Origin: Nitrospirota bacterium
GTDB taxonomy: Bacteria; Nitrospirota; JACRHJ01
Direction of reading: 5' to 3'
DNA: 64,000 nucleotides
Assembly (NCBI GenBank): GCA_021784575.1
Contig: JAJYHX010000008.1
Span: 1-64,000 of the forward strand
The translations under genes were made by a program, and so were the position numbers. The notes beneath the pieces were generated by a model. The model had not been told where the DNA came from. It did not search any database and was given only the letters and a program-made list of their open reading frames with translations. Of this stretch, positions 9,110 through 60,053 are shown in pieces. The stretch's first letter is position 1, and each line of letters opens with the position of its first letter.

Positions 9110-9129
9110 GGTGCTGTCCTCAATGGTGC

Positions 9130-9221
9130 TCCCTCACCCCCCAACCCCCTATCCCGGCGGGCGAGGGGAGATTTTATAATGTCCATCTCCTCGCGGGAGA
9201 GGGACTACGGGGTGAGGGGAT
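9130..9221. repeat. dispersed CCCTCACC / GGTGAGGG repeat between rseP and ispG
   Basis: The outer arms ccctcacccc and ggggtgaggg enclose smaller inverted units, including cccggcgggcgaggg and ctcctcgcgggagag. The element fills most of the gap between two operon genes and belongs to the same group as those at 2643 and 43777. Confidence 0.7.
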
Positions 9222-38262: not shown

Positions 38263-39113
38263 GACATCCTCCAGAAACGCCGCCGCCTCATCCTGAAATC
38301 CTCGATTCCCGCATCCTCAGCGAGTCTTCTCATCTCGGATGGCGTAAAGGCTTTAAGGACGGAGAGAGGCCCGTCGCAGCGGGTATACCTGTTGGCCGTG
38401 AAAAGCCTGGTCAATAGCCATATCAGCGCCCAGGGGATGATGTTCCTGCGCAAGTCGCCAATAATTATCGCGAACTTCGAGACGCGGGCCATCTCGGCCA
38501 TGAATTTCACGGCGTCGCCGCGGCTCAGGTGGTGCAGCACAAGGGAACAATGGACAATGTCGAAGCTTCCATCCGGGAAAGGGAGCCTCAGGCCATCGGC
38601 CAGAACATATGATATTTCAGAATTTCCTTGAGGCCGGTCTACCGGTTGAAGCCGGGCTGCCGGTTCGCGGTTCCAGGCACGCCCCGCCGAAAGCGCGGCA
38701 AGGTTTAAGTCCGCAGCCACGGAAAACACCGCATAGCCTTTATCTTCCGCATACCCGGCCATGGCGGCGGTAATGTCCGCAGAGCCTGCGGCGACGTCGA
38801 GTATCTTAAGGCGCCGGGCCTCTTTTTCGTCACTCTCCCCTCGCCCGCCGGGCGAGGGGACGGGGATGGCGGCTTCCATGCGCCCCAGCGCAAGCGCAAG
38901 CTCCTTCAGCGCCGAGCCGACTCCCCCCAGCCACAGGTTCACGCGCCTGATGTCCATCAGGCTTCCCTGAAGCGCCCGGCTGTCCTGTTCGTCCGGCGGC
39001 AGGTCGAGAAGCTCACGCTTCAAACACCTGCGGGGAACGAGGGCCGGGAACCAGCCCCGAGGTTTATTGTCCGGAGCCGAATCCTGGCCGGGGCGCCCGC
39101 GCGGAACGGACAT
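38232..39113 (-). CDS. class I SAM-dependent methyltransferase, with repeat-derived segments
   Basis: The 293-residue protein has a SAM-binding motif ILDVAAGSADITAAM, an acidic loop VLADGLRLPFPDGSFDIVHC (in part) and VLHHLSRGD, the features of class I methyltransferases. An N-terminal helical region (MDIRRVNLWLGGVGSALKEL) is shared with enzymes seen near ketosynthases. Residues 82-92 (PVPSPGGRGES) are encoded by a ggcgaggg-type repeat, and the C-terminus (LLFFRDKEK) by another, neither of which is part of the fold. The substrate is unknown. The gene's start overlaps the mdh stop by one base. Confidence 0.75.
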   Translation of the reverse strand: MSVPRGRPGQDSAPDNKPRGWFPALVPRRCLKRELLDLPPDEQDSRALQGSLMDIRRVNLWLGGVGSALKELALALGRMEAAIPVPSPGGRGESDEKEARRLKILDVAAGSADITAAMAGYAEDKGYAVFSVAADLNLAALSAGRAWNREPAARLQPVDRPQGNSEISYVLADGLRLPFPDGSFDIVHCSLVLHHLSRGDAVKFMAEMARVSKFAIIIGDLRRNIIPWALIWLLTRLFTANRYTRCDGPLSVLKAFTPSEMRRLAEDAGIEDFRMRRRRFWRMSLLFFRDKEK

Positions 39114-45185: not shown

Positions 45186-45212
45186 ATAACAGAACCTCCT
45201 TAAAATGATTGC

Positions 45213-45284
45213 CATTCTGAGCCAAGCGAAGAATCCACAGTCCTCATTAAAAATAGATTCTTCGGCTGACGCCTCAGAATGACA
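45213..45284. repeat. inverted repeat ATTCTGAG...GAAGAATC / GATTCTTC...CTCAGAAT
   Basis: The left half (attctgagccaagcgaagaatc) is mirrored by the right half (gattcttcggctgacgcctcagaat) across about 30 bases. This fills the gap between ugd and rfbD. This type of repeat is widespread in bacteria; the function is unknown. Confidence 0.75.
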
Positions 45285-45290
45285 GGCGAA

Positions 45291-57280: not shown

Positions 57281-58237
57281 CTATATATATTTCATCGGGT
57301 TTACCGGGACTCCGTTGACCAGCACCTCGTAATGGAGGTGCGGGCCGGTGGAATGCCCGGTATTCCCGATTGCGCCTATCACATCGCCTCTTTTGACGCG
57401 CTGGCCGTCCTGCACGCCTATCCTGGAGAGGTGGCAATACATCGTCGCCATGCCGTAGCCGTGCTCTATCTTCACATAATTCCCGTAGCTCGACGAAAAG
57501 CCCGCGGCGGACACCGTGCCGTCAGCGGTGGCGTGGACCGGGGTCCCGATGTCGTTTGCTATGTCAAGCCCGCAATGGAACTCCGTCGTGCCGTAAATGG
57601 GGGAGTTGCGGTATCCGAACCTGGAGGTTATGAATCCCCTCACGGGCCAGATGCTCGGAGTGCAGGCCATGATGGAGTTCCTCTGCTCGAAATAGACCAT
57701 CAGCTTCTTTATCCTGGCCTCTTCGGACGAGGCGTCGGATTTTAGGCTGTCGAGCTCCCGGGATACCTGGGCGGCGGCTTCGCCTTCGGGCTTCCTGCCG
57801 AATTCCCGGAGGCTTACCGCGCCGATCTCGGACGACCCGCCCGTCCCTTTCACGCCGAAACTCTTTCCGGCGACATTGCCGGCGACTGAGCTTAAGCGGT
57901 CGGAAAGCTCCTTTATTTTCGCCATCCGGCTCTTCATGTCAACGACGGAGACCGCCATCTTCATGAGCTGGGCGTGCTGGGACGAGGCCTCCCGCCGGAG
58001 ATAGTCGAGCTCTATTACCTTTCCGGCCATACTCAGGTATTCCCCGAACATGCCGGTGGAAAGCATGACGGCGGCGACCGCGGCAATAAGGGAGTTCCTG
58101 AGCAGGGATTTGGATATGCTGAACTTTCGGACTTTGGAGTTCGGTCCGGGCAGGATTACGACGGTGAAGTACTCTTTCTTCCGAGTGCTTGCCGCCTGCT
58201 TGTAAAGATTATACCTTTCCTTCAGCCTTTGTAGCAG
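57281..58237 (-). CDS. M23-family peptidoglycan endopeptidase with a non-canonical start
   Basis: The C-terminal 130 residues form an M23 (LytM) metallopeptidase: FHCGLDIANDIGTPVHA with zinc His and Asp, and GHSTGPHLHYEVLVNG with the HLH zinc motif. The middle is coiled coil. A membrane helix (about 45-68) spans the first in-frame ATG (58066), and conserved upstream sequence reads LLQRLKERYNLYK..., so the true start is further up. No ATG, GTG or TTG exists in the frame; CTG at 58237 with GGGGGG six bases upstream is the best candidate. The protein is about 318 residues, membrane anchored, and cuts peptidoglycan peptide bridges. Confidence 0.75.
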   Translation of the reverse strand: MLQRLKERYNLYKQAASTRKKEYFTVVILPGPNSKVRKFSISKSLLRNSLIAAVAAVMLSTGMFGEYLSMAGKVIELDYLRREASSQHAQLMKMAVSVVDMKSRMAKIKELSDRLSSVAGNVAGKSFGVKGTGGSSEIGAVSLREFGRKPEGEAAAQVSRELDSLKSDASSEEARIKKLMVYFEQRNSIMACTPSIWPVRGFITSRFGYRNSPIYGTTEFHCGLDIANDIGTPVHATADGTVSAAGFSSSYGNYVKIEHGYGMATMYCHLSRIGVQDGQRVKRGDVIGAIGNTGHSTGPHLHYEVLVNGVPVNPMKYI

Positions 58238-58294: not shown

Positions 58295-59737
58295 TCAAGG
58301 ATTTTCTGCCTTTGCAAGAACGCAGATTCGACACGCCCCGGACCTTTTTGCGCATCGCTCCTTCGCCAGGCGTACGATAAGGGCGTGATATTCATTGTAT
58401 AATTTCACGTCCCCGGGCAGGGAATCCATAAAGAATTTCTGCACTTCGTGATATTCGGAGTCCGGCGGGAAAAAGCCGTGCCGGGAGAAAATCCGCTTCG
58501 TGTACGCGTCCACGACGAATACCGGCATCTCAAGGGCATAGAGCATTATGGAGTCCGCCGTCTCCGGGCCGATGCCGGTCACCGAGAGGAGTTCACGCCG
58601 GATTTGCGCCACATCGCCCTTGCGCATTTTCCCGGTTTTCCCGCCGTAACTCTCCATGAAATATTTAACGAACGACTTTAGCCTTTTCGCCTTGATGTTG
58701 AAGTAGCCGGACGGCTTTATAAGCTCCGCGAGCCGTCCCTCGGGCATGGCGTCGATCGCCTCCGGGGAGAGCGAATCGGAGCGCTTTAAATTGCTTATCG
58801 CCTTCTCGACATTCGTCCAGCTCGTGTTCTGCGTGAGTATCGCCCCCACCATAACCTCGAACGGCGTCTCTCCCGGCCACCAGCTCTGCGGGCCGTAATG
58901 CTCGAGGAGGGAATTGTAAATTTTGATAAGTTCCCCTCTCCCCATCCCCTCTCCCGCAAGGGGCGAGGGGTTTCGCTTCTCTATGATGTTATTTACCTTT
59001 TTACCCTCACCACCCGTGGGGGAGGGTGGCGCAAAGCGCCGGGAGAGGGCTGGCTTGGGGTTTTCTTTCCTTATTTTGTTCACAAGTATATGCGCCCTCC
59101 TTGCCGGTTCCGGGAGGCGGTACTTCGCGCAGCATCCAAGGACGATTTCGCAGGCCCTGTCCAGGCTTGTCATGTGGCCCACGGAAACAAAAACGGGCTT
59201 CACCTTCTCCTTCGTCCTGAGCGCGCGCCCGACCTCGATGTTTTTATAGACGAGCGGAGATGTCGAGCCGCGCATCCTTGCCGGTTCCCTGAACTCGCCC
59301 ACGAGAACGGACTTTGCGCAGCCTATCGACGGTATGCCCGTCAGGACGCCTATGTGGGACGCTATCCCGAAGCCGCGCGGATGCGCGACCCCGTGGCCGT
59401 CAACCAGGATAACATCGGGCCTGTTCTTCAGCTTGCCGAGCGCCTTGATTACAATCGGCCCCTCGCGGAAGGACAAAAGACCAGGGATATACGGGAACGG
59501 CGCCTTCCCGGAGGCGCGGGCTTCCTCGATTGTCTCCAACTCCGGGAACTTCAGGACCACCACGGCGGCGTGGAAATTATCGCTCCCCTTATCGTAAGAT
59601 ACATCCGCCCCGGCGACAAGATGGACGGGGCCTGTTTTGTCTTCGAGCACAAGCCGCGGCTTCAGCCGTTCCTGTATGCGGACGGCCTCTTTGTAGTTTC
59701 TCGGCCTGCGGGGGTGTTTCAAGACGGGTTCAACCAA
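58295..59737 (-). CDS. nfi: endonuclease V - endonuclease III-like fusion
   Basis: The 480-residue protein joins two DNA repair domains. Residues about 1-222 are endonuclease V: VAGADVSYDKG, VDGHGVAHPRGFGIASHIG and IPSIGCAKSVLVG with acidic residues, which cuts beside deoxyinosine. Residues about 265-480 are an HhH-GPD glycosylase/lyase: LTQNTSWTNVEKAI, GIGPETADSI and catalytic Asp in VFVVDAYTKRIF. The Fe-S tail has C-x6-C-x2-C but no fourth Cys. Between them, residues 227-245 and 255-268 (PSPTGGEG, PSPLAGEGMGRGE) are encoded by two repeat units (59001 and 58932). The start overlaps cutA by eight bases. Confidence 0.85.
   Translation of the reverse strand: MVEPVLKHPRRPRNYKEAVRIQERLKPRLVLEDKTGPVHLVAGADVSYDKGSDNFHAAVVVLKFPELETIEEARASGKAPFPYIPGLLSFREGPIVIKALGKLKNRPDVILVDGHGVAHPRGFGIASHIGVLTGIPSIGCAKSVLVGEFREPARMRGSTSPLVYKNIEVGRALRTKEKVKPVFVSVGHMTSLDRACEIVLGCCAKYRLPEPARRAHILVNKIRKENPKPALSRRFAPPSPTGGEGKKVNNIIEKRNPSPLAGEGMGRGELIKIYNSLLEHYGPQSWWPGETPFEVMVGAILTQNTSWTNVEKAISNLKRSDSLSPEAIDAMPEGRLAELIKPSGYFNIKAKRLKSFVKYFMESYGGKTGKMRKGDVAQIRRELLSVTGIGPETADSIMLYALEMPVFVVDAYTKRIFSRHGFFPPDSEYHEVQKFFMDSLPGDVKLYNEYHALIVRLAKERCAKRSGACRICVLAKAENP
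58932..58972. repeat. CCCCTCTCCC repeat in the nfi-nth linker (unit 1)
   Basis: ccccatcccctctcccgcaagg and ggcgagggg form inverted arms. It encodes PSPLAGEGMGRGE in the fusion protein. Confidence 0.75.
59001..59055. repeat. CCCTCACC repeat in the nfi-nth linker (unit 2)
   Basis: accctcaccacccgtgggg and aggg...agcgccgggagagggc form the unit; translated in frame it gives ALSRRFAPPSPTGGEG. A second copy type is at 58932. Confidence 0.7.
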
Positions 59738-60053
59738 GGCGGGTGTTTTCCGCTATCCACTGGAGGTATGGCTTAAAGCCTTCGGATATTTCAAGCGCGA
59801 TAATCTCCGGCACCTCGTAGGGGTGCATGGAGCGGACTCTTTTTTCAAGCTGCGGGAATCTCCCGGACGCGGTCTTGATTACGAGAAGGCACTCCCGCTC
59901 GTCGCAGATATCTCCCTTCCACCTGTAAATGGAGCGTATGCCCCTCACGATATTCGCGCAGGCCGCAAGCCGCTCCTCCACGAGCGTCCGGCCAATCATG
60001 GCCGCGGAGTCTTCGTCCGGCGCGGTAACAAGCGCAACGATTTCCTCAGTCAT
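59730..60053 (-). CDS. cutA: CutA1 divalent cation tolerance protein
   Basis: The 107-residue protein has the CutA1 hallmarks RTLVEERLAACANIV, GIRSIYRWKGDI, MHPYEVPEIIAL and YLQWIAENT. It forms trimers and is linked to copper tolerance. It overlaps the next gene (nfi) by eight bases at its 3' end and a preceding gene by eight at its 5' end. Confidence 0.92.
   Translation of the reverse strand: MTEEIVALVTAPDEDSAAMIGRTLVEERLAACANIVRGIRSIYRWKGDICDERECLLVIKTASGRFPQLEKRVRSMHPYEVPEIIALEISEGFKPYLQWIAENTRLG

Follow-up and report, generated by a model that had tools for sequence, protein, structure and literature searches.

A single open reading frame in a 64,000-nucleotide stretch of DNA (the window: positions 1 to 64,000 of contig JAJYHX010000008.1), from a 2.1 Mb, 97% complete Nitrospirota bin (G000), raises the question of whether two DNA repair enzymes have become one protein, which enzymes these are, how their frames were joined and what the union might serve.

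The fused frame and its two enzymes

The frame, its neighbors and its domains are as follows:

58295..59737, minus strand: fused open reading frame, 480 aa; its TTG start overlaps the end of cutA, and orthologous open frames occur in G001, G002, G004 and G005
59730..60053, minus strand: cutA, the upstream neighbor, with an 8 bp overlap with the fused gene
57281..58066, minus strand: M23-type peptidase gene (named from sequence), the downstream neighbor, conserved by synteny in G000, G001, G004 and other families
59090..59668, minus strand: endonuclease V domain, residues 24-216 (Pfam PF04493, E 2e-74; alignment to Thermotoga maritima EndoV, 2w35)
58421..58849, minus strand: HhH-GPD glycosylase core of the MagIII/MpgII type, residues 297-439 (Pfam PF00730, E 3e-17; match to MagIII, 1pu6)
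58322..58354, minus strand: C-X6-C-X2-C motif of three cysteines, lacking the customary fourth (from sequence; 48/55 subfamily members alike)

Translation of 58295-59737 gives 480 codons with zero internal stops, which encode an endonuclease V (PF04493), a linker of ~49 residues and an HhH-GPD glycosylase, in that order. The preliminary description of a single 480-residue frame fusing two enzymes is hence borne out, with Pfam Endonuclease_5 and HhH-GPD in the same frame and that frame open in four other genomes. In the AlphaFold model two confident domains flank a linker that is disordered over residues 228-266 (pLDDT about 25; about 22-26 over residues 231-260), and the C-terminus of the glycosylase, residues 444-480, is poorly modelled.

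The fusion is open and free of stops in five of the six genomes of the family, namely G000, G001, G002 and G004 of the same genus and G005 of a sister genus, with whole-protein identities to the query of 78-83% for G001, G002 and G004 and 65% for G005. Agreement among these five assemblies of separate genomes rules out an assembly error or frameshift as the source of the fusion. The fused gene was not found in G003, the remaining member of the genus, where the neighboring M23 gene also lacks a close match (33% identity at best); this locus is probably absent through an assembly gap, and the missing neighbor leaves loss of the fusion there unsupported. Across the five genomes the domains retain 206 and 205 codons with no indels, and dN/dS values of about 0.05-0.19 in both indicate that each is under purifying selection. 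Beyond the family, 396 other Nitrospirota genomes were searched, of which 106 have EndoV and 166 the glycosylase; relatives with separate genes, which had been proposed as a check, thus exist, and no fusion was found among the matches listed. Likewise, none of the matches listed from 297 genomes of another phylum (that of L043) covers both domains, the best scoring about 270 bits vs 665 or more for the true fusions.

In a residue-by-residue alignment to 2w35, D45, E92, D113, K142 and H216 of the first domain are intact along with the PYIP wedge, the five being identical to D43, E89, D110, K139 and H214 of the T. maritima enzyme, which we take to be its catalytic positions. By profile and catalytic residues this domain belongs to the Endonuclease V family (PF04493/nfi) and is predicted to nick 3' of deaminated bases (hypoxanthine/deoxyinosine).

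The second enzyme had been called endonuclease III-like, with oxidised pyrimidines or mismatches as its substrates. The likeness holds only at the level of the HhH-GPD superfamily fold. Where the HhH motif of Nth reads GVGRKTA that of the second domain reads GIGPETAD, with a glutamate (E392) in place of the lyase lysine, as in 78 of 78 subfamily hits; the catalytic D410 is present, and W286 and W287 of the pocket lie just upstream of the Pfam match. The same glutamate is shared by MagIII, MpgII and Mja-UDG (PMC11754123). The Nth four-cysteine FeS loop, C-X6-C-X2-C-X5-C, is incomplete, having Glu at the fourth position, and the second domain scores 101.8 bits against the NCBIfam model for MagIII (PRK13913) vs 66.1 bits against that for nth. 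Since the equivalog cut-offs of these models are 192 and 211.7 bits respectively, it should be read as a relative of MagIII rather than an equivalog. Helicobacter pylori MagIII (1pu6, E 6e-22) is also its closest solved structure by sequence and its best glycosylase match by fold. E392 and D410 align to MagIII E132 and D150, and the tryptophans likewise align to residues that presumably line the MagIII pocket. Thus, the second domain has the Glu for the lyase Lys, the catalytic Asp and the WWP pocket of MagIII and T. maritima MpgII; it differs in that MagIII stands alone, whereas here the glycosylase follows EndoV, in having Trp for the pocket residue F45 of MagIII, and in keeping the three-cysteine motif. 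The C-X6-C-X2-C arrangement lacking the fourth FeS ligand is widespread across the glycosylase subfamily.

The lysine-to-glutamate change, the cysteines and the NCBIfam scores rule out an endonuclease III identity, and two ordinary Nth genes, with GVGRKTA and four-cysteine loops, are present elsewhere in the window genome. Given the Glu at the lyase Lys position, MagIII as the best match and these Nth genes, we classify the second domain from its sequence as a monofunctional glycosylase of the MagIII/MpgII type. Its predicted substrates are alkylated purines such as 3-methyladenine, which it would excise, and lyase action on oxidised pyrimidines is not expected of it; the oxidised-pyrimidine or mismatch substrate finds no support.

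A linker of dispersed palindromic repeats

The two domains are joined by the following elements:

58931..59077, minus strand: linker, 49 residues (221-269), predicted disordered (junction mapping; AlphaFold pLDDT)
59003..59049, minus strand: palindromic repeat unit A, encoding ALSRRFAPPSPTGGEG; its best copies elsewhere are 94% and 89% identical
58933..58970, minus strand: palindromic repeat unit B, encoding NPSPLAGEGMGRG (copies elsewhere; hairpin pairing)

The junction begins at the natural end of EndoV (AHILVN-K-R-K) and stops just short of the normal start of the glycosylase (IYN..L). The presence of two palindromic units in the linker, as first described, is confirmed by mapping of their arms (58946-58955/58961-58970 and 59003-59011/59019-59027, with longer pairings that join the two units), and a 119-nt stretch of the linker folds better than 200 of 200 shuffles (z -3.0). 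An Rfam search of the linker recovered no known RNA. Pattern and BLAST searches placed units related to these at about 30 sites elsewhere in the genome. Further clusters of PSP-type palindromic repeats lie in the window at 2642-2730, 9128-9219 and 38836-38877, and a larger palindrome pair at 45204-45287 consists of two inverted HSERSEES-type units.

Comparison of the five fused genomes showed that the linker, 34-49 residues long, is built of dispersed palindromic repeats that have been rebuilt differently in each lineage yet always in frame. In G001 and G004 a PSP-type unit is followed by a CHSERSEES unit, and this composite pair recurs elsewhere in both genomes; G002 has the same pair preceded by an additional in-frame stretch, and G005 has a single PSP-type unit. 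Unit B of the window genome looks like the linker unit of G001, G004 and G002 in inverse orientation. In an alignment of G001 with G004, the repeat reaches 95-100% identity in each 90-column window and most of the flanking coding windows 77-95%. The linker is here conserved above the neighboring coding sequence, which suggests either conversion from other copies or a constraint at the DNA level.

Repeats of the same kinds are found in frame inside conserved housekeeping genes of the genus, namely those for an Ogg-type glycosylase (L057), MoeA (L060), an acyl-CoA synthetase, a ThiL-like protein (L064), an E2 acyltransferase (L071), KdsA (L072, L168), MetG (L158) and GlyS (L159). In most of these the Pfam domain runs straight through the repeat; against solved structures, MoeA shows an insert and KdsA has differing inserts at one loop in two species. 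Only 9 of 46 tested copies are intragenic and in frame, while 58 of 92 control positions fall in coding sequence; hence the repeats are depleted in genes, which nevertheless tolerate them. With dispersed, hairpin-forming copies and in-frame insertions in complete conserved genes, they can be classed by sequence as coding palindromic repeats of the RPE/REP type. A search for a Y1 transposase of the REP type found none in the window genome and one clear match in G001.

In-frame insertion into genes is described for the palindromic elements of Rickettsia (reviewed in PMC10969869), and in-frame intragenic REPs, including many in repair genes, for other bacteria (PMC3733652). Like the Rickettsia elements and the GTAG/CGTC REPs, the present repeats are small dispersed palindromes that lie in frame in functional genes, repair genes among them, and vary between relatives, but their sequences are different and they belong to another phylum. 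Moreover, they form here the junction of two complete enzymes, an arrangement that the passages of PMC3733652 and PMC10969869 available to us do not describe. The Nitrospirota thereby join Rickettsia, the best-known case, among bacteria with palindromes inserted in frame.

Gene order and the origin of the fusion

All five fused genomes share the order pheT - small gene - cutA - EndoV:glycosylase, and in G000, G001 and G004 the fusion is followed by the M23 peptidase and a cold-shock gene. In several other families cutA lies immediately before the glycosylase with no EndoV in between, the M23 gene being next in some, and in G387 and G235 EndoV adjoins cutA. G297 encodes EndoV and the glycosylase in tandem and unfused, with a TAA, 5 bp and then an ATG in a different frame. 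This arrangement is plausibly of the ancestral type and makes it likely that neighboring genes were the source of the fusion, as had been proposed.

We envisage an ancestral order cutA - endoV - glycosylase, in which a small mobile palindrome would have inserted at the endoV stop codon in the family ancestor; a repeat of suitable length placed before a stop such as that of G297 would abolish it and bring the two genes into one frame. This appears to be the likeliest route, and subsequent repeat insertions would then have kept remaking the linker in frame. The earlier proposal that repeat insertion between the genes produced the fusion thus stands as far as the repeat-derived linker goes, and as a cause the repeat is plausible. 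The linker of G005 shares only the general repeat type with those of the other fused genomes, so that the genus and its sister genus might have acquired their fusions in two separate events. In G005 another repeat lies between cutA and endoV (L013), and the open frame extends back through it to 615 aa; this repeat may extend the EndoV N-terminus or be non-coding.

Conversely, loss of a stop or a frameshift could have made the fusion first, with repeats later entering a tolerant linker as passengers. Such a history would be in keeping with the repeats in other single genes, where they occupy loops and linkers (the interdomain linkers of E2 and MetG, the KdsA loop), and with the variation of the units between lineages. 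Against it, repeat units are present in all five linkers and start right at the natural end of EndoV, and none of the fused relatives found has a linker free of repeats. We regard it as possible, though we would sooner doubt it than accept it.

The product and its possible advantage

One further element bears on whether the frame yields a single product:

58943..58945, minus strand: in-frame internal ATG with GGAGAGGGG directly upstream, a possible second start in the window species (junction mapping)

An internal stop or start had been named as the observation that would count against a fusion; no stop is in frame, and this ATG is present. A separate short glycosylase could possibly be made from it in the window species. 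Two proteins might then be the rule, with translation stopping or restarting in the linker and the open frame being a by-product of stop-poor GC-rich repeats. The purine-rich GGAGAGGGG before the ATG and the candidate linker starts in G005 (ATG) and G002 (TTG TTG) would fit this account. However, the linkers of G001 and G004 contain no in-frame ATG, GTG or TTG from the end of EndoV to the WWP motif of the glycosylase, and the next in-frame ATG lies within the conserved core (FEVMVG), past the pocket motif; in these two species the glycosylase could be made only with EndoV attached, unless translation began at a less common codon (ATT). Furthermore, none of the five genomes has an EndoV stop. 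Shuffled linkers are stop-free in 16-48% of cases, depending on the linker, and, taking the chance of being in frame as one in three and the three architectures (G000, G001-type and G005) as independent, we obtain a probability of about 0.06 x 0.05 x 0.16, or about 5e-4, that all three keep the frame and lack a stop. We consider the two-protein account improbable. A search for a promoter within the fused gene found none.

We think it probable that the locus encodes one bifunctional repair protein, in which EndoV and a MagIII/MpgII-type glycosylase are held by a disordered linker of 34-49 residues, their frames joined by repeats. EndoV would nick DNA 3' of hypoxanthine, while the glycosylase would excise alkylated purines and leave the AP site to other enzymes. 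The tether would ensure that both are made 1:1, share DNA binding and search the same DNA.

The closest known system is the fusion of O6-alkylguanine alkyltransferase to EndoV (AGT-EndoV) of Ferroplasma acidarmanus (Kanugula 2005, cited in PMC7690668). As presented in the passages of PMC7690668 available to us, it too is bifunctional and pairs EndoV with another base repair enzyme, one directed at alkylation damage; it differs in being archaeal, in having the alkyltransferase rather than an HhH-GPD glycosylase as partner, and in that those passages mention no repeat-derived linker. The literature searched, which was covered in part through titles, abstracts and passages, yielded no fusion of EndoV with a glycosylase. 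Within that coverage, bifunctional repair fusions are a known kind, and the glycosylase partner and the repeat-built linker would be new.

The fusion could also be real and functionally neutral, a stop-removing insertion having joined operon neighbors without harm to either domain and without any cooperation between them. This alternative overlaps with the reading we prefer, since it describes the same protein and differs only over benefit; we place it not far short of an even prospect. The same repeats lie in frame in many unrelated enzymes, which makes insertion with frame keeping a general phenomenon here, and the sequence and length of the linker are free (34-49 aa). On the other hand, the fusion has lasted in a genus and its sister genus through the rebuilding of its linker, even though one stop mutation together with a start could have reversed it, and the pairing of deamination and alkylation repair has a parallel in the Ferroplasma AGT-EndoV protein. 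Whether these two kinds of repair benefit from tethering, as with the archaeal fusion, is the question this protein poses for repair biology.

A broader and more tentative view, which we hold to be on balance doubtful, is that mobile palindromic repeats are ready-made, stop-free linkers that fuse operon neighbors into bifunctional enzymes, the EndoV-glycosylase being a selected product in which repeat turnover alters linker length and the fusion is kept. The family offers a natural set of linker exchanges between constant enzymes, and the five orthologs together with the tandem unfused relative make the creation of multidomain proteins by palindromes testable.
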